Part shown: in pieces, positions 13,936 to 53,850 of the stretch
Position numbering within the stretch: position 1 is the stretch's first letter
How the letters are laid out: every line of letters starts with the position of its first letter
NCBI GenBank assembly: GCA_009909005.1
Contig: JAAAOG010000074.1
Span: forward strand, 1 to 55,041
DNA: 55,041 nt
Source of the DNA: Alphaproteobacteria bacterium
GTDB taxonomy: Bacteria > Pseudomonadota > Alphaproteobacteria > DSM-16000 > Inquilinaceae
Reading direction: 5' to 3'
Notes under the pieces: model-generated
Seen by the model: the letters and a program-made list of their open reading frames with translations, nothing else
Told to the model about the DNA's origin: nothing
Databases searched by the model: none
Translations under genes and position numbers: made by a program

Positions 13936-13936
13936 T
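13871..13936 (-). repeat. Palindromic dispersed repeat, two cores in tandem
   Basis: Read on the minus strand there is first GGCGGCAGGGATGCCGCC (around 13913-13930, a 7-bp stem with a 4-base loop). About 12 bases later comes GGGGCGGCGTCCGGCCGACC (around 13871-13890), a diverged form of the GGTCGGCG...CGCCGACC core. The same two cores, in matching sequence contexts, make up the tandem array at 54.6-54.9 kb and recur singly at 23.4 and 25.5 kb. The element begins directly after the stop of the DUF4139 gene and may form a hairpin at the end of its transcript. Confidence 0.7.
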
Positions 13937-16083
13937 CACCGCAGCTCCAGATCGCGGACATAGTCGGCCAGAGCGGTGCGGCGGGACTCCAGGGAGCCGC
14001 GCAGGCGGGCGATCTCCCGGCGCAGGCTGGCCAGGCGATCCTCCTGCCGGCTGAGCGCGTCGAGATAGCGCTCATAAAGGTCGCTGTCGCGCGGCACGCT
14101 GTCGAGATTGCGGCGGATGCGGCCCTGGTCCTGATCGATGTCCGCCACCGCGCGCTCCAGTTCGGCCAGTCTGCTCTCTTCCTCGGAAATGGCCGCAGAC
14201 TGCTCGGCGATCTCGGCGAGGGCCTCGCGGATGTCGGGCGACAGCCGGTCGGCCTCGGCATAGACCCCGATCTGCGAGCGGGACAGGTTCAGCAGTTGCA
14301 TACGCTCGGTGCGCGGGCGCTCCTGTACCACTTCGATGGACACCGTCTCTCCGGCCGGGACCGGCACCCGGATGCGGATGTGGTTCTCCGTCAGGCTGAT
14401 CCGGTCTTCCGCCTCTTCGGACGACGGCGTCACCAGGTCCCAGCCGGCCCGGCGCGGGTGTTCGAGGACGACCAGTCGGTTCTCGGTCGCGGCCCCGGCG
14501 ATGGTGTAGGTCATGCGGGCGCGATCGGAATAGATCAGCTCCAGCAGCCCGTCGACGATCCGCCCGCGGGCGATGGTGCGGGTGTCGCTGCTCTCCCGGT
14601 CGATGGTCACCGCCTGGTCGACGGCATAGCTGACCAGCCGCTCCTCGCCGGCCGGCACGGTGTCCAGCCGGGCATCGCCGACATAGGCGACGGCTTCGGT
14701 GCCGCGGCGCCGTTCGTAGAGCGTCAGCACGCCGGGCGGCAGGCCGGTGCTGCCGTCATTTTCCAGCCGCACCGAGGCGAGCGGGTGGCGCGGATGGGTG
14801 TCGGGCTGGTACAGCGCCACCCGCTCCATCGGCACGTCCCGGCTGACGAAGGGCACCAGCAGCGAATCGCCGCTGGCGACCGAGACCGGACCGGGGAGGC
14901 GGAACAGCACCTGGGCGGTCAGCGCCTCGGCATCGGCGGCGGTGACCCGCGCCAGGTCCGCCGGGGCGCCGGAGGCTGCGGCCCGGCCTTCCGACACCCG
15001 GGCCATGTCGAACATGCCGACGCCTGCCGCCTCGGCGGCGGGGGCCGGCATCGGCTCGGGCGCCCGGGCCGCCGGTCCCGTCGGTTGCGGCGAAACCGCC
15101 CCGGTGTCGAGCCGCGGCAGCACCCGGCCGAACACCTCGACGGGGATTTCGGGCCGGTCGACGTAATAGGCCTGATAGAGCGCCTGGCGGAAGGTCACCG
15201 GATTGCCGGACAGGATGGTCAGCGACACCGCCTCCCAGTCCTCGCCGCTGAGGTTCTCCAGCACCGCCCAGCCCTGCAGTCCGGCGGTCCGGTCGGCCTC
15301 GTCGCCGGCCGCATCCTCGTCCTCCGCCGCGGCGGCCGGGGGCAGGGTCAGGCGGTAGGCGGTCTTCCACAGCGGCACCTCGACGACATAGGCGAGGCGG
15401 ACGGTGCGCTCGCCCTCGCCGCTAAGCCGGGCCGTCAGGGTGCGGCGCTCCTGCTCGCCATGGCGGGCCAGCGCCGCCAGCGCCGCGTCCACCTGGCCGG
15501 CGAGGTCGGGGTCGGTGAATTCCAGACTGTCGGTGTCTTCCAGAATGAACTGCCGGACGCCGCTGTCGGTCATCACCGAGACGCGGTGGCGGGTCTCGAC
15601 CGTGCCGGCTTCAGGCACCCGCACCGTCTCTTCCACCACCGACAGCACCCGGCCGGCAAGGTCGCGCGGTCCCTCGACCCGGATCGCCGCGCCGCGCAGC
15701 GCCTCCAGCAGGGCCGCCGGCGAGGCCAGTGCCGCGGGCCCGAAGGGCAGCTCGCGAAAGGCCTCGCGCAGCGGCTCGCGCCCGGGCAGGCTGATCGCGC
15801 CGATGCTGCCGGCGCTGTCATAGACCACCAGGCTCTTCAGCACGTCGTCGACCTGGTCGAGCCGGACGTCCAGCGACAGGGCGGCATCGCCGGTCACCAC
15901 CGCCTCGTACTCGAAGTAACCGACCCCGCCGGTCGACAGAGCCACGTGCCGCAAACTGAGCGCACCGCCGTCCGTCGCCTCCGCCTCGGGGCTGCGAACG
16001 TCGATCTGGGCGCGCGCCGCCGGGGTCAGGGATGTGGCGGCGAGAAGGGCCGAGACGGCGGCCGCCGTCAACCAATGTGGCAT
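13936..16083 (-). CDS. Secreted DUF4139 domain protein
   Basis: This is a 715-residue protein with an N-terminal signal peptide (MPHWLTAAAVSALLAATSLT, cleavage near ARAQ). The rest matches the DUF4139 architecture: an N-terminal beta domain (SLRHVALSTGGVGYFEYEA), a central mucoidy-inhibitor-A-like beta region, and a C-terminal coiled coil from about residue 635 (repeated E/L/R heptads ending ALADYVRDLELR). The start is the ATG at 16083, with AGGGAG eight bases upstream; the frame is open further but without a ribosome site. It is expected to be periplasmic or surface-located. Its function is not known. The kai operon lies upstream on the same strand, 103 bp away, so co-transcription is possible. 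Confidence 0.88.
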   Translation of the reverse strand: MPHWLTAAAVSALLAATSLTPAARAQIDVRSPEAEATDGGALSLRHVALSTGGVGYFEYEAVVTGDAALSLDVRLDQVDDVLKSLVVYDSAGSIGAISLPGREPLREAFRELPFGPAALASPAALLEALRGAAIRVEGPRDLAGRVLSVVEETVRVPEAGTVETRHRVSVMTDSGVRQFILEDTDSLEFTDPDLAGQVDAALAALARHGEQERRTLTARLSGEGERTVRLAYVVEVPLWKTAYRLTLPPAAAAEDEDAAGDEADRTAGLQGWAVLENLSGEDWEAVSLTILSGNPVTFRQALYQAYYVDRPEIPVEVFGRVLPRLDTGAVSPQPTGPAARAPEPMPAPAAEAAGVGMFDMARVSEGRAAASGAPADLARVTAADAEALTAQVLFRLPGPVSVASGDSLLVPFVSRDVPMERVALYQPDTHPRHPLASVRLENDGSTGLPPGVLTLYERRRGTEAVAYVGDARLDTVPAGEERLVSYAVDQAVTIDRESSDTRTIARGRIVDGLLELIYSDRARMTYTIAGAATENRLVVLEHPRRAGWDLVTPSSEEAEDRISLTENHIRIRVPVPAGETVSIEVVQERPRTERMQLLNLSRSQIGVYAEADRLSPDIREALAEIAEQSAAISEEESRLAELERAVADIDQDQGRIRRNLDSVPRDSDLYERYLDALSRQEDRLASLRREIARLRGSLESRRTALADYVRDLELR

Positions 16084-16186: not shown

Positions 16187-16978
16187 TCAGCGAAGCGGCC
16201 AACCGCGGCGACCATGTGGCGGCGTTGCGGTCGGCGCCGGACTGCGGTCGGTAATGTCCCTCAAAGAGGCCAGCCGCATCGGTTGCTGGTTCCACAGCGT
16301 ATCGGTCACACGCATCTCGACCAGGCGCGCTTCGCCGTCGCGCTGCATCAATTCGATCTCGGCGGCGGGCTCGGCAACCGGACTGCCGAAGCCGCGGCCG
16401 ACCAGCTTGCCCTCCGGGACGCCGAACAGGGCATGTGCGGCAGCATTGGCATAACGCACGGTCCCGGCGAAATCGATAATGACCATGCCGTCGGCATTGT
16501 TCTCGATCATGTGGGTGAAGCGGGCAACCGCTTCGGTGCAGCGCCGCTGCCATGCGGCGGCCTCCTGCCGGGCTTCGTGCAAGGCCAGCATGGCATCGAA
16601 CAGCTGCAGCCCGGCGGGTGTCGCGATGGCATCGCGCGGCAGGCAATGGTCGGCCCCGGCCCGGATTAGACCACGGGCGAGGTCCGGGTCCCAGGTCTCG
16701 GCCAGCGCCACCACCGGCACCGGGCCGAAACGGGTGCGCAGGCGAGAGATCAGCACCTCGTCGCCGTCCTGCCAGGCCAGGTCGATCACGGTCGGCATCG
16801 GCGGCAGGGTCAGGCGGTCGAGATCGCGGCGGCGGCCGGTGTGAAAGCGCAGGGCGCAACGATCGATGGCGCGCTGCAGAGCCTCCTCGATGGCCCGGCC
16901 TTCCGCCTCGCAGACGATCAGTATGTCGACCCACGGCGCATCCCGGGCCGCGGCGGACCAACCGGGTAGGCCGGGCAT
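16187..16978 (-). CDS. Pseudo-receiver/PAS protein, third gene of the kai operon
   Basis: This is a 263-residue protein. Residues 16-135 have a receiver-like fold: VDILIVCEAEG in place of the usual acidic pair, PTVIDLAWQDGDE with D66 at the phospho-acceptor position, VPVVALAE and GADHCLPRD. The conserved Thr/Ser and Lys switch residues are replaced by Ala93 and Arg115, so this is probably a pseudo-receiver. A short helix leads into a PAS domain at about 150-245 (MIENNADGMVIIDFAGTVRYANAAAHALFG). There is no kinase, GGDEF or DNA-binding domain. The ATG at 16978 lies two bases after the kaiC stop, so the three kai-cluster genes form one operon. By inference it is an adaptor for KaiC input or output. 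Confidence 0.85.
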   Translation of the reverse strand: MPGLPGWSAAARDAPWVDILIVCEAEGRAIEEALQRAIDRCALRFHTGRRRDLDRLTLPPMPTVIDLAWQDGDEVLISRLRTRFGPVPVVALAETWDPDLARGLIRAGADHCLPRDAIATPAGLQLFDAMLALHEARQEAAAWQRRCTEAVARFTHMIENNADGMVIIDFAGTVRYANAAAHALFGVPEGKLVGRGFGSPVAEPAAEIELMQRDGEARLVEMRVTDTLWNQQPMRLASLRDITDRSPAPTATPPHGRRGWPLR

Positions 16979-16980
16979 GG

Positions 16981-18501
16981 TTATTCCAGGATCCGCGCCG
17001 GTTTGCTTCCGGGCTCTTCGCCGGCCGACATGGTCGGGTTGCCGGCGAGGATACCGCTGACATTCCGGAACGGTTCGCCGATATGCATGCCGTGCTGGTC
17101 GATGGTGAATTCGCGGATGTTCTTGTCGTGCGACGAGCCGCGCATCTTCAGCACCGTCATGCCGCGGCGCATCTCGCCGTCGATCTCGGCGTAGCGCAGC
17201 AGAATGATCGAATCGGTGATGGTGGAGATATGCGCCTCGGTCACCGAGGTGCCGCCCAGCAGGGTCGGGGTTGTCGAGGTGAACAGCCCGGCGATCTCCT
17301 GATGCTTGATGAAGGAGGTCAGGCTGATCACGAATTCCCGGAAGCCGCGAACGGTGGAAATGCGCTCCAGGGCCGAGAGACTGTCGATGGCGACCCGGTT
17401 GGGGCGGAAGGTGTTGATGGCCGCCCGCATGCTGACCAGGTGGTCCTCCAGCCCCATAACTTCCGGATAGTTGCAAACGACCATCAGCCGGCCGTCGCGC
17501 TCCATCTCGGCGAAGTCGATGCCCCAGCCGCTGGCATTGCGGAACAGCTGTTCGCGGCTCTCCTCAAAGGCGAAGACCATGCAGCGTTCGTCGGCCGCGG
17601 CCCCGCCGGACAGGAAGTGCGTGACGATCAGCGTCTTGCCGGTGCCGGTGGCGCCGGAGACCAGGATGATCGAATCGCGGAAAAAGCCGCCGCCGCACAT
17701 GTCGTCGATCTGCTCGACGCCCGAGGATATGCGCACCTCCGAGGAGCGCTGGCGCAGCTCGATGGCCGACAGCGGGATGACCGTGACGCCCTGGCCCGGC
17801 AGGATGGTCAGCGGGTATTCGCCCTTTTGGTGATAGGCGCCGCGGAACTTCAGCACCTCGATGGTGCGGCGGCGCTTCTCCTCCTCCAGCACATTGCGGA
17901 GAATCACGACATTGTCGCTGACGAACTCCTCGACCCCGTAGCGGGCGATGTCGCCATATTCGCGGTTGCGCTCGGCCGTCATGACGGTCGTCACCTGCCG
18001 GCGCTTCAGGGTGACGGCGATGCGCAGCAGCTCGCTGCGGATCAGATTGCTGTCATGGAAGCGCGAGAAGATGGCGCCCAGCGAATCGAGCGACACCCGC
18101 TTGGCGTCGACGCGGTTGATGGCGTGTTCGATCCGGGCCAGCAGGGCGCCGAGATCGTAATGGCCGATGGCGGCAATCTCCTGGTCGCCATGCTGGATCG
18201 AGGCGTCGACGAAGACCCATTTGCCCTCCGCCTCCCAGGTCTCGATATCCCAGTTGAAGCCCAGGGTATTGCGTCGGATGTCGGTCGGCGATTCCTCGAA
18301 GGTGACGAAGACGCCGGTCTCGCCGAACTGCAGGATGCCCTCGGCCAGGAACTGGCAGGCGAACAGTGTCTTGGCGCTGCCGGCCGTGCCTGCCACCAGG
18401 GTGGTCCGCAGGGCAGGCAGCCCGCCATTGGCGATTGCGTCGAAGCCCGTGATACCGGTGGGCACTTTGGCCACGGAAGAAATCTGCTTGCCTTGATCCA
18501 T
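16981..18501 (-). CDS. kaiC: KaiC, double-domain clock ATPase/autokinase
   Basis: This is a 506-residue protein with two RecA-like domains. CI has Walker A GTAGSAKT at 38-45 and the catalytic Glu pair at 69-70. CII has GATGTGKT at 283-290 and its Glu pair at 313-314. Aligning TEAHISTITDS by eye to cyanobacterial KaiC places T421, S426 and T427 at the three CII phosphorylation residues (T426, S431, T432 of Synechococcus). The following YAEIDGEM and LKMRGSSHDKNIREF match the family closely. The C-terminal tail after about residue 485 is short and unlike the KaiA-binding tail. The start is the ATG at 18501, four bases after the kaiB stop. Length is close to the cyanobacterial 519 residues. Confidence 0.95.
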   Translation of the reverse strand: MDQGKQISSVAKVPTGITGFDAIANGGLPALRTTLVAGTAGSAKTLFACQFLAEGILQFGETGVFVTFEESPTDIRRNTLGFNWDIETWEAEGKWVFVDASIQHGDQEIAAIGHYDLGALLARIEHAINRVDAKRVSLDSLGAIFSRFHDSNLIRSELLRIAVTLKRRQVTTVMTAERNREYGDIARYGVEEFVSDNVVILRNVLEEEKRRRTIEVLKFRGAYHQKGEYPLTILPGQGVTVIPLSAIELRQRSSEVRISSGVEQIDDMCGGGFFRDSIILVSGATGTGKTLIVTHFLSGGAAADERCMVFAFEESREQLFRNASGWGIDFAEMERDGRLMVVCNYPEVMGLEDHLVSMRAAINTFRPNRVAIDSLSALERISTVRGFREFVISLTSFIKHQEIAGLFTSTTPTLLGGTSVTEAHISTITDSIILLRYAEIDGEMRRGMTVLKMRGSSHDKNIREFTIDQHGMHIGEPFRNVSGILAGNPTMSAGEEPGSKPARILE

Positions 18502-18505
18502 CCTG

Positions 18506-18799
18506 CTAACCCCTTCCGTGGCCGGCGGCGAGTTCGAGGCCGAGGGCCTCGGCAACCGCTTTGGTATCGGACAGGTCGCCGATCACGCGGACCGACGGCC
18601 CCGGGGCCGCCTTGATCAGCGTGGGCGTCGCCAGCAATCGCTCCTGTTCCGCCAGCTCCGGATTCTCGAGAATATCCACCACCTCGTGGTCGTGGCCCTC
18701 GCCTCCGATCGCCCGCATCAAGGCCTCGAGATTGGCGATCGCCAGCTGCGACCGTGGCGACCGCCCGATGACGTAGAGCTTCAACGAGTACTTCGGCAC
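18506..18799 (-). CDS. kaiB: KaiB clock protein
   Basis: This is a 97-residue thioredoxin-like protein of the KaiB family. The hallmark strings are LKLYVIGRSPRSQLAIANLE, VDILENPELAEQERLLATPT with the cis-Pro at position 59, and VRVIGDLSD. Length matches cyanobacterial KaiB (about 102). KaiB binds the CI ring of KaiC after CII phosphorylation. The start is a GTG at 18799, and no better ATG is in frame. It is the first gene of the kaiB-kaiC-pseudo-receiver operon. No kaiA is present in the window. Confidence 0.94.
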   Translation of the reverse strand: MPKYSLKLYVIGRSPRSQLAIANLEALMRAIGGEGHDHEVVDILENPELAEQERLLATPTLIKAAPGPSVRVIGDLSDTKAVAEALGLELAAGHGRG

Positions 18800-18987: not shown

Positions 18988-21030
18988 CTATTTGCCGACC
19001 GCGCCGCCCCCGCCGCCCGGCTGGACGCTCAGCACATAGGTGCCGGTCTCGCTGCCGAAGGCGTGGGCGTTGACGTAATAGGTGCCGGTGGTCGGCGCGA
19101 CGAAACGCAGGAGTGAATTCAGCCCCTGGCCGCCGTCGTCGTCGAGGCCCAGCTCGCGGCCCTGGGCGTCGAGAATCGCCACCTTCGGATCGGACAGCGA
19201 GCCACGGCCGGTTGTGCTGCCTTCCATGGCGATCTGGTAGGCGGTGCCGCCGGTCAGCTGCACGGCGAACCAGTCCTGGTCGCCCGGTGTCTCCAGATTG
19301 CCGTCGACGCTGCCGCCGACGCTCACCCGGCCGCCGGTTCCGGTACTGCTGGCGTAGTCGTCGGTGAAGGCGGCGCCGTGGCCCGCACTCAGCCGGTAGG
19401 TTCCGGTCGCCGAGCCGAAAGCCTGCGCCGCCAGGTAATAGGTGCCGTTGCGCGGCGGCGTGAAGGTCAGGCGGGAGTTGAAGCCGCTGCCCCCATCATC
19501 GTCGCGCACCAGTTCGCGGCCGCTTGCATCATGCATGGTCAGCAGCGGGTCGGAGAGCGTGCCCTGGCCGGTCGGCTCGCCCTCCAGGTCGAAGGTGTAG
19601 GTCACGCCGGACTGCAGGGCGATGGAGAACCAGTCGACATCGCCGTTCAGCTCCAGCTCGCCCGTGACCGAGCGGCCCGGCGCCAGCTGGCCGCGCGTGG
19701 CGGGCGTGTTGGCATAGTCGTCGGTCAGCGGTCCGCGGTCGTTCACCGTCAGGGTGTAGGTCCCGGTGGCCTCGGAGAAGGCGCGGGCGACGACGTAATA
19801 GGTGCCGCTGAAGCCCGGCTGGATGGTCAGGCTGGCATTGAAGCCTTCCCCGCCGTCATCATCCTGGCCGACGACATTGCCGTTCGGGTCCTGCAGGCGC
19901 ACCAGCGGGTCGGAGAGCGTGCCGCGGCCGGTCGGCTGGCCTTCCATGTCGATGGTATAGGCGGTGCCGGCCTGCAGGGTGACGGCGAACCAGTCCTCGT
20001 CGCCCGGGAAATCGAGCGCGCTGGTCGCCGGCTGGCCGATCTGCAGCCGGGCGGTGCTGGAGGGATCGCCCGGGATCTCGCCGCCGACCGGCGGCTGCGG
20101 CTGCGGCTGCGGCTGCGGTTGGGGCTGTGGCTGCGGGGCCGGCGTGCCCGCCTGCTCGGCGACGCTGAGCGTATAGCTGCCGGTGGCCTGACCGAAGGCC
20201 TGGGCCGCCAGATAGAAGGTGGCATCCCAGGGCGCGGTGAAGGTCAGCCGGGAATTGAAATCGTCGCCGCCGTCATCGTCGCGCCGGATTTCGTTGCCGC
20301 CGGCATCGTGGAGGCTGAGCAGCGGGTCGACCAGCGTACCCCGGTTGGTCGGCGCGCCTTCCAGATCGATGACATAGGTGGTGCCGCCCCGCAGGTCGAC
20401 GGCGAACCAGTCGGCGTCGCCGCTGGTTTCAAGAGCGCCGGTGACCTGGCCGCCCGCCCGGACCCGGCCGCCCGTGGACGAATCGGCGGCGTAATCGTCG
20501 GTGGCCAGCGGCTGCGGCTGCTGCGGTTGCGGCTGGGGTTGCGGCTCGGGTTGCGGCCGGGGCTGTTCGGCCACCGGGCCGGGCGCCGGTGCCCCGCCCT
20601 CGGCGACGCTCAGCGTGTAGGTGCCATAGGCGCGGCCGAAGGATTCGACCGAGAGATAGTATCGGCCGCCCTCGCGGGCGGTGAAGACCAGCCGGGCATT
20701 GAAGCTCTCGCCGCCGTCGTCGTCGCGGGCCACCTGAATGGCATCCGAATCGTAAATCACCAGCAGCGGGTCGACCAGCGAGCCGCCCCCGGTCGCATCG
20801 CCTTCCAGGTCGATGGTGTAGGTCTGCCCGGCCCGGAATTCGACGGCGAACCAGTCGACATCCTCTCCGGCCTCGAGCTCGCCCGAGATGCTGCCGCCCA
20901 CCGGCACGCTGCCGCCGGTCTCGGGACCGCCGGCATAGTCGTCGGCGCCGCTCTGGGCTGCCGCCGGGCCGGCCAGGGCGAGGCCAACCGCCAGGCCGGT
21001 CAGGGCCGGAAGCAAAGGTCTCATTGCCAT
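18988..21030 (-). CDS. Secreted protein of five PPC domains
   Basis: This is a 680-residue protein with a signal peptide (MAMRPLLPALTGLAVGLALA, cleavage near AAAQSG). Five bacterial pre-peptidase C-terminal (PPC) beta-sandwich domains of about 110-120 residues follow, and there is no peptidase domain. Each repeat has DDYA...TGG, DWFAV, YTIDLEG, DPLL, RDDDGG..FN and a closing ATGTYTLSV; the Asp clusters look like calcium sites. Domains 1-2 and 2-3 are joined by Pro-Gln linkers; domains 3-5 abut. The start is the ATG at 21030 behind GGAGGA. PPC domains usually accompany secreted enzymes as adhesion or localisation modules, so a protein of PPC domains only may be an adhesin or matrix component (inference). 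Confidence 0.9.
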   Translation of the reverse strand: MAMRPLLPALTGLAVGLALAGPAAAQSGADDYAGGPETGGSVPVGGSISGELEAGEDVDWFAVEFRAGQTYTIDLEGDATGGGSLVDPLLVIYDSDAIQVARDDDGGESFNARLVFTAREGGRYYLSVESFGRAYGTYTLSVAEGGAPAPGPVAEQPRPQPEPQPQPQPQQPQPLATDDYAADSSTGGRVRAGGQVTGALETSGDADWFAVDLRGGTTYVIDLEGAPTNRGTLVDPLLSLHDAGGNEIRRDDDGGDDFNSRLTFTAPWDATFYLAAQAFGQATGSYTLSVAEQAGTPAPQPQPQPQPQPQPQPPVGGEIPGDPSSTARLQIGQPATSALDFPGDEDWFAVTLQAGTAYTIDMEGQPTGRGTLSDPLVRLQDPNGNVVGQDDDGGEGFNASLTIQPGFSGTYYVVARAFSEATGTYTLTVNDRGPLTDDYANTPATRGQLAPGRSVTGELELNGDVDWFSIALQSGVTYTFDLEGEPTGQGTLSDPLLTMHDASGRELVRDDDGGSGFNSRLTFTPPRNGTYYLAAQAFGSATGTYRLSAGHGAAFTDDYASSTGTGGRVSVGGSVDGNLETPGDQDWFAVQLTGGTAYQIAMEGSTTGRGSLSDPKVAILDAQGRELGLDDDGGQGLNSLLRFVAPTTGTYYVNAHAFGSETGTYVLSVQPGGGGGAVGK

Positions 21031-21313
21031 GATAAACGCTCCTCCTTCTTCGTTGTGACAGGGCTTCGCTGCGACGGGGGACAGGGTGTCGTGATCGACG
21101 GTCGTTGCCGGCGGTGGCGCCATCGCCGGGCCGATTGCGAACCCCATCATAGCGCCGGGATTTGACAAAGCGATGGCGGGGCGAGACGGGAATACGCAGG
21201 CGGGGCACGGCAACGCGCTTTGCGTGTTTACGCGGCAGGCCCATGTCTGAAGGGTTCCCTCCGCGATCCGCCGGGTCTCTTCACCGAGTCTGCACCAATC
21301 AAGGAGAGCCGAA

Positions 21314-51600: not shown

Positions 51601-51783
51601 CGGCGTCAAGTCTCGCAACCGTGATGTGTGCCCCATCGTCACGCCGGACATAAATCTTTATGTGCGCTTTAAGAAATAGGGCGTAGAGTAAGGAGTAGAG
51701 CCTTCGCTTGATACGTGGGCGCGCGGATGTATCCGGAAAGCCCGAAGTTGAATGTTTCCGCAGCCCTCGATGGTGGGGCTGAA

Positions 51784-53850
51784 ATGACCCAGAATTGGGG
51801 GCGTTTGGCGCTCTTGATCTACATGTCGGTGTTCGCCGGCATGCTGGCTCTCAGTCTTGCGCTGTATTTCATCGGCATCCGACCTTTGGCCGATCATTTG
51901 GCCGAGACCTATCACCGCGAAATCCACGATAGCCTGGCCGATACGCGGCAAATGTTTCGGGAGGTCATCCGGGACTTCGAGCAGGCCGCGGCGCGCCTCT
52001 CCGGCCGCAGGGCTGTTGCGGCCCGCCAGATCGCCTTTCTTCAGGGGCAGATCGATCTCGCCGACCTTGTCGCCTACAGCATCCCGCAACTGGCCGACAG
52101 CCTGGGCCCCGAAAGCCGCATCCGGGGGGTCCGACGGTACGGACCGGACGGGTCTTTCCTCTTTGCCGTGGGCGAACCGGCCGCCGGAGATCTGGCCGGC
52201 CGATGCGTCTCCCGATCCACGGGCGTCTCCCTGCTGGCGGTTCGGGACGACGGTGCCGGATTTGATTTCATCTACTGCTCGCCCATCCGACAGCCGGGGA
52301 TGGGTCTGATCGGCTTCGATGTCCTGCGCATGGATGGCAGCGACGTCTACCGGCTGATTGAAAGGGAAAGCAATGACTTCATGTCATTTCTCCTGACCAG
52401 AAACCATGATGACGTCCTTATCGCCCCCCCGACGGCAGAGGCGATGGAAGCTGTCGCGGTTTTTGCAGAGTCGTTGCAGGATGGGCGGGAGGCCGAAAAC
52501 TTTTCATTCTTCTGTTGTGCCAATCTGGCTGACCGGCTGGAGCTTCATGCGATCGTCGACAGGGAGCGCTATTTCGGTCCGATGCACGCGATTTACGACC
52601 GATTGCTGGTGTCTTTGCCGCTCGCCTTTGCCGCCGCGCTTACCTTGACCATGCTGACGGTCCGGCCCCTGTTCCGGGCCTTGGACAGGAAGGCCCGCCA
52701 GGCCCATGAGCGGCGCCTGTACCAGGAGCTTTTCCTGGGATCGAACGCGCTCATGCTGCTCATCGACCCGGCGGACGGCCGCATCGTCGATGCCAATCCG
52801 GCGGCGGAACGCTTTTATGGCTATGACCGGGCGACATTGCTGGCGATGACCATCCAGCAGATCAACACCCTGAGCCCGGACGCGGTCGCGGCGGAGCGGC
52901 GCCGGGCGCAGCAGCGCGAGGCCAACAGCTTCCTGTTCCGCCACCGTCTGGCGTCCGGCGATATCCGCGTTGTCGAGGTGCATTCCACGCCCCTCAGCTG
53001 GGACGGCGCGAGGCTGCTGTTCTCGGTCATCCACGATATGACGGAGCGCAAGCGCATGGAGGATGCGCTGGTCGAGGCCCGGCGGCACGCTGAAGAGGCC
53101 AACGCCGCCAAGAGCGCATTCATCGCCGCGATGAGCCACGAATTGCGCTCGCCGCTCAACGTCATTCTGGGCTTTTCGGAGGTCATTCACCACGAGATGT
53201 TCGGCCCGGTCGGCACGCCCCGGTACCGCGACTACGCCGCCGACATTCACAGGAGCGGCAGCCACCTGATCGAGCTGATCGACGACCTGCTCGACCTCGC
53301 CAAGATCGAGGCCGGCCGCTTCAAGATCGCACCGGAGCCGGTCGACCCCGGCGCGCTGGTCGCCGACTGCTTGAAGCTGGTCGGCGAGCGGGCCCGCAAT
53401 CACGGTCTGACCGTGGATCCGCGCATCGCCGAAGACCTGCCGGCGCTCTCGGCCGATCCCCGCGCCTTGCGGCAGATGCTGTTCAATCTTCTGTCCAATG
53501 CCATCAAATTCACCCCGGCGGGCGGGCGGATCACGGTTTCCGCCGTGCCGGCGGCCGATGGCGGCCTGGTGCTGTCGGTCGCCGACACGGGAATCGGCAT
53601 GTCGCCGGAGGACCGGGCGCATCTGTTCGAGCCTTTCTACCGCGCGCCCGATGCCGAACGCCGGCATATCGAGGGAACGGGGCTGGGACTGGCGCTGGTC
53701 CGCTCGCTGATGGAGCAGCATGGGGGGCGGGTGACGGTGGACAGTGCGCCGGGACAGGGCAGTGTCTTCCGCCTGGTCTTTCCGCCCGGCGAACCTCCGG
53801 GACAGGCGGCGGCCGGAACCGCACCGGACGCTTCGGGTTCTCTCCCCTAA
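51784..53850 (+). CDS. Membrane-bound PAS sensor histidine kinase
   Basis: This is a 688-residue sensor kinase. Helix one is at about 8-32 and helix two at about 280-300, enclosing a periplasmic sensor domain of about 245 residues. A PAS domain follows (about 320-430, NALMLLIDPADGRIVDANPA), then HisKA with H452 in MSHELRSPLNVILGF, and HATPase with N-box NLLSNAIKFTPAGG, VADTGIGMSPED, LFEPFYR and GTGLGLALV. There is no receiver domain and no partner regulator adjacent. The ATG at 51784 directly precedes helix one; an ATG at 51727 and a GTG at 51715 are alternatives. The signal is unknown. Confidence 0.92.
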   Translation: MTQNWGRLALLIYMSVFAGMLALSLALYFIGIRPLADHLAETYHREIHDSLADTRQMFREVIRDFEQAAARLSGRRAVAARQIAFLQGQIDLADLVAYSIPQLADSLGPESRIRGVRRYGPDGSFLFAVGEPAAGDLAGRCVSRSTGVSLLAVRDDGAGFDFIYCSPIRQPGMGLIGFDVLRMDGSDVYRLIERESNDFMSFLLTRNHDDVLIAPPTAEAMEAVAVFAESLQDGREAENFSFFCCANLADRLELHAIVDRERYFGPMHAIYDRLLVSLPLAFAAALTLTMLTVRPLFRALDRKARQAHERRLYQELFLGSNALMLLIDPADGRIVDANPAAERFYGYDRATLLAMTIQQINTLSPDAVAAERRRAQQREANSFLFRHRLASGDIRVVEVHSTPLSWDGARLLFSVIHDMTERKRMEDALVEARRHAEEANAAKSAFIAAMSHELRSPLNVILGFSEVIHHEMFGPVGTPRYRDYAADIHRSGSHLIELIDDLLDLAKIEAGRFKIAPEPVDPGALVADCLKLVGERARNHGLTVDPRIAEDLPALSADPRALRQMLFNLLSNAIKFTPAGGRITVSAVPAADGGLVLSVADTGIGMSPEDRAHLFEPFYRAPDAERRHIEGTGLGLALVRSLMEQHGGRVTVDSAPGQGSVFRLVFPPGEPPGQAAAGTAPDASGSLP

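Follow-up and report, generated by a model that had tools for sequence, protein, structure and literature searches.

The loci described here bear on how KaiA-less KaiBC timers outside cyanobacteria are driven and read out. The window, which is the whole 55,041-nucleotide stretch of alphaproteobacterial DNA analysed (contig JAAAOG010000074.1, Inquilinaceae), carries kaiB, kaiC and a third gene head to tail on the minus strand, with the third gene directly after kaiC. The gaps are 4 bases between kaiB and kaiC (18502-18505) and 2 bases between kaiC and the third gene (16979-16980), in agreement with the packing of kaiB, kaiC and a 263-residue gene described in the initial annotation. The features are as follows.

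18506-18799, minus strand: kaiB, GTG start, 97 amino acids (Pfam PF07689)
16981-18501, minus strand: kaiC, ATG start, 506 amino acids (Pfam PF06745, NCBIfam circ_KaiC)
16187-16978, minus strand: third gene, ATG start, 263 amino acids (Pfam PAS)
16553-16936, minus strand: part of the third gene that encodes the receiver-like domain, including D66, A93 and R115 (receiver profile score, AlphaFold2 model)
16241-16540, minus strand: region of the third gene coding for the PAS domain (Pfam, family alignment, leave-one-out score, PDB fold matches)
13936-16083, minus strand: DUF4139-like gene after the third gene (Pfam match below cut-off)
18988-21213: PPC-domain gene, next upstream of kaiB (Pfam)

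The window KaiB was recognised by Pfam (PF07689, E 1.3e-20) and has a GDLSD motif at residue 74. KaiC matched PF06745 (E 6.5e-117), scored above the cut-off of NCBIfam circ_KaiC and retains two ATPase domains with Walker A motifs at 38 and 283, EE at 69-70 and 313-314, and the phosphosite pair S426/T427 of the two-phosphosite KaiC type. Its C-terminal tail ends about 20 residues past the A-loop region, without a long extension of the KaiC_RS type (about 50 extra C-terminal residues). The protein encoded just upstream of kaiB (18988-21213) contains five bacterial pre-peptidase C-terminal (PPC) repeats.

The third protein is built of a pseudo-receiver (about residues 15-142), a linker helix, a PAS domain (about 147-246) and a 17-residue tail. 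PAS is its sole Pfam domain, above the cut-off at residues 152-205 (E 8.2e-9); Pfam found neither HisKA nor HATPase in the protein and made no call for the N-domain. The signal for a receiver-like N-domain is weak but real: a profile built from eleven receivers of kai-type proteins, mostly from kai loci, gave 16.7 bits where the highest-scoring of 2000 shuffles reached 8.4, and hhalign gave an E of 5e-5 in one single comparison. In an AlphaFold2 model that took a 5-sequence alignment as input (pLDDT 70 on average and less in the N-domain), strands (E) and helices (H) follow one another in receiver-like order (E20-22, H27-45, E63-66, H73-84, E89-93, H98-106, E111-114), and a long helix (121-160) then leads into a confident PAS domain; a single-sequence model (pLDDT 42) was of no use. 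The switch residues reported in the initial annotation, D66, Ala93 and Arg115, were verified in the sequence, as was the altered N-terminal acidic pair, C23-E24 standing in place of E-D at the end of beta-1. Its broader description also held: a kaiBC operon that has no neighbouring KaiA gene and encodes a pseudo-receiver joined to PAS without a kinase.

A protein of this build could be an input adaptor, its PAS domain sensing redox, light or a metabolite and feeding KaiC or KaiB. The PAS fold is confident, and the lists of PDB fold matches (Foldseek, VIA-align) are filled by PAS domains, including heme, flavin and LOV PAS structures. These matches are however generic and bring no sign of a cofactor, and no heme-ligand histidine or LOV cysteine motif was recognised by eye in the domain, so that we regard a role of this kind as improbable.

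Homologues of the third protein point instead to a sensor kinase. Among 96 relatives, matches were obtained in eight genomes, the window's own included, and the homologue lies in a frame of 522-1185 amino acids in 7/7 of the others. A search of 385 alphaproteobacterial genomes returned 13 genomes besides the window's with a homologue at E<=1e-10, each in a frame of 390 amino acids or more; those that were checked match the kinase profile, and no second genome with the kinase-less short form was found among the 385. The best full-length homologue is a 675-amino-acid pREC-PAS-PAS-HisKA-HATPase protein of G010, a genome of the same family (32 % identity over 249 amino acids, E 5e-28, matching residues 5-243), in which Pfam identifies two PAS regions, HisKA and HATPase and in which the N-domain is degenerate like that of the third protein. 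In another family member, G002, whose KaiC is 78 % identical to that of the window, kaiB-kaiC is followed by a 651-amino-acid pREC-PAS-PAS-HK, and in G347 a genuine REC-PAS-HK lies directly after kaiC. Because its homologues lie in longer kinase frames, the window protein can be equated with the N-terminal half of such a sensor kinase; the kinase part is missing from a domain border on, and the 17-residue tail is unrelated. The refuting condition of the initial annotation, that all relatives lack this gene beside kaiBC, had a mixed outcome: the longer kinase form adjoins kaiC in G002 and at many other loci, and the kinase-less form at none.

Gene order downstream links the same two genes. The product of 13936-16083 has a signal-like N-terminus and is 58 % identical to its copy in G010, which there follows the 675-amino-acid kinase as it follows the third gene in the window; only these two of the 14 family genomes with a DUF4139-like gene have a receiver-PAS gene before it. 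No kaiBC was found beside the kinase on the G010 contig and no KaiC above threshold in that genome, so that G010 has the kinase without kaiBC and the window has kaiBC without the kinase half. A further family member, G004, has kaiBC and no receiver-PAS gene. The surroundings of the kai genes in G004 and G002 differ from those of the window, with an MFS-like gene upstream (L038, L019) and glycoside hydrolase-like genes (trehalose/glycogen type by eye) downstream.

Compared in this way, the kinase-length homologues, the gene order of G002 and the junction with the DUF4139-like gene in G010 support a reading of the third gene as a kinase-less orthologue of the pREC-PAS(-PAS)-histidine kinase normally found after kaiBC. 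The short form might have arisen in the assembly, the true gene carrying a kinase, since the genome is a draft of 230 contigs and the form has a sole example. However, the frame ends cleanly 103 bases before the intact start of the DUF4139-like gene and no kinase fragment was found in this gap or nearby, and we consider such an artefact highly improbable. Nor did any of the 41 kinase matches of the window genome stand out as the lost part. One of these, a 711-amino-acid kinase at 51715-53850 with an uncharacterised N-terminal half, has a HisKA/HATPase half resembling the kai-linked kinases of relatives. It was rejected as the relocated kinase half, having its own N-terminal half and being no better a candidate than several others of the 41, and is probably one of many ordinary kinases.

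The closest homologues being sensor kinases, we prefer to see in the third gene a clock-linked kinase reduced to its sensor half, most likely leftover or repurposed, which would read the state of KaiB/KaiC and pass it on to another protein. In intact kinases of this type, the receiver-like domain and PAS most likely sense the state of KaiB-KaiC complexes or some co-signal, and kinase activity would be adjusted accordingly, as in the output kinases CikA and SasA. The comparison indicates that the second PAS, HisKA and ATPase parts have been lost here, whereas the sensor half is kept in a position that would allow its co-translation with KaiC. On the model of the CikA pseudo-receiver, which binds KaiB, the third protein would most likely still dock on KaiB/KaiC and act on another protein by way of its long helix and PAS, for instance on a kinase among the 41 other matches of the genome. 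We assign a probability of about 0.55 to a kinase-less orthologue that docks and acts in this way, having counted against it the low identity to the G010 kinase (32 %), the absence of kaiBC from G010 and the weak score of the receiver-like domain. It is unlikely, if conceivable, that the pREC-PAS protein left by a clock output kinase has instead become a direct regulator of KaiC/KaiB within a KaiA-less timer.

The main rival of the sensor-half reading is that the gene is a non-functional remnant of a kaiBC-linked kinase which has not yet decayed, with KaiBC working without it. The short form is present in one genome only, the kinase was lost at a domain border, where an unrelated tail now follows, and G004 has kaiBC without such a gene, so that the family can do without it. 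On the other hand, the frame is intact with codon bias in phase (GC by codon position 0.74/0.53/0.81), D66 is kept though lost in the G010 and G002 kinases, and the PAS domain is as conserved as in intact family members (110 bits in leave-one-out, inside the range of intact proteins; 82 for G010 and 81 for G002), so that no decay is evident, although a recent truncation would give the same PAS conservation score as a functional short form. We hold the remnant to be a possible but distinctly less probable account than a sensor half still in use.

We surveyed 17 further Pseudomonadota stretches and Chloroflexota loci for the wider setting of kai genes. Downstream of kaiC are sensors in which the PAS subfamily of the third protein is combined with kinases, GGDEF or GGDEF-EAL, and a gene with a KaiA-type C-domain is usually upstream of kaiB. 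The PAS type of the third protein was found in kaiBC-linked kinases, in cyclases and in some KaiA-like proteins; it occurs beside kaiC in 4/7 kaiC-bearing relatives and is present in 3/88 others (Fisher p 4e-4), and is therefore enriched at kai loci, yet not exclusive to them. These contexts agree with the published pattern of kaiBC followed by PAS/HK or GGDEF/EAL (PMC3164672, PMC4794148) and with KaiA3 (PMC11372060). In two Chloroflexota loci (L033:3300-4544, L032:2-883) the gene upstream of kaiB combines PAS domains with a KaiA-type C-domain and has no receiver.

The initial annotation had proposed the third protein as a candidate KaiA substitute, which would stimulate KaiC autophosphorylation directly. 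Its operon position fits, as does a pseudo-receiver N-domain like those of KaiA and KaiA3, and no KaiA gene was detected by a KaiA-C profile (A1) or PF07688 in the window genome, G002, G004, G010 or G012 (also placed in this family); this absence rests on A1, a profile that matches solved KaiA weakly (E about 0.8), because Pfam KaiA misses the KaiA3-type proteins of G017 and G347. The third protein, however, lacks the KaiA-type C-terminal four-helix domain (no Pfam KaiA match), and its homologues are kinases. Related kai loci encode their KaiA-like proteins in a different gene, located mostly upstream of kaiB and not after kaiC; these proteins combine an N-part that is a receiver or PAS with a KaiA-type C-domain. 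The window KaiC also lacks a C-terminal helix (pattern like E..[RE][LIVM]..MF) present in 21/21 KaiC whose locus has a KaiA-C gene and in 0/7 whose locus has none, the window among the latter, in a set of related sequences and for a motif picked after viewing them. KaiA binds the C-terminal tail of KaiC (PMC6378743), and loss of the helix thus argues against a protein docking there in the manner of KaiA. No feature testable here supports the third protein as a KaiA replacement, and we think this role very doubtful, a little more so than that of an input adaptor. On account of its tail and the missing KaiA gene, we would expect the window KaiC to be independent of KaiA, as in other KaiB-KaiC timers that have none. 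With the same reservations of a motif chosen post hoc in related sequences, we suggest the helix as a simple marker of KaiA dependence. One clade of the KaiC tree (95/99) holds the window, G002 and G004; depending on how it is placed with respect to the other KaiA-less clade, 1 to 3 changes are possible.

CikA has GAF and kinase domains and a C-terminal pseudo-receiver; like the window protein it is a clock-associated sensor with a pseudo-receiver, whereas the window protein has no GAF or kinase and its receiver is N-terminal. The CikA pseudo-receiver contacts fold-switched KaiB (PMC6378743). Cyanobacterial KaiA shares the N-terminal pseudo-receiver, but its C-domain is absent from the window protein, and the window KaiC is without the tail helix paired with KaiA-type genes. 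KaiA3, which is Synechocystis Sll0485 and has also been reported in Rhodospirillum and Bradyrhizobium (PMC11372060), likewise has a receiver-like N-domain and belongs to a kaiBC cluster, but its C-domain is KaiA-like and its gene is found upstream of kaiB, whereas the window gene carries PAS and lies downstream of kaiC. The kaiC-B-PAS/HK operons of R. palustris and R. sphaeroides (PMC4794148) resemble the window in having the sensor gene directly after kaiBC on the same strand, and the kaiBC-linked sensors surveyed here have the same PAS subfamily, but the window gene has no HisKA/HATPase or output domain and its receiver is degenerate. KaiA-free systems include R. sphaeroides KaiC_RS with its long coiled-coil tail (PMC10076222) and the KaiB-KaiC timer of Prochlorococcus (PMC7766417); the window similarly has KaiB and KaiC with no KaiA found, although its KaiC, unlike KaiC_RS, ends short after the A-loop region.

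These loci form a natural series in which the kinase is kept with a genuine receiver (G347), with a degenerate receiver (G002) or with kaiBC absent (G010), or kaiBC is kept with the kinase lost (window) or alone (G004). At another surveyed locus (L064:6381-8420), a KaiC-like fragment of reduced length comes after a second kaiB-like gene, together with a PAS-PAS-GGDEF gene that a stop or frame change splits. The kaiBC of L030 (JANQQD010000002.1), labelled Anaerolineae, is identical over 2958 bases to a G012 contig, and the record is probably mislabelled or misbinned.
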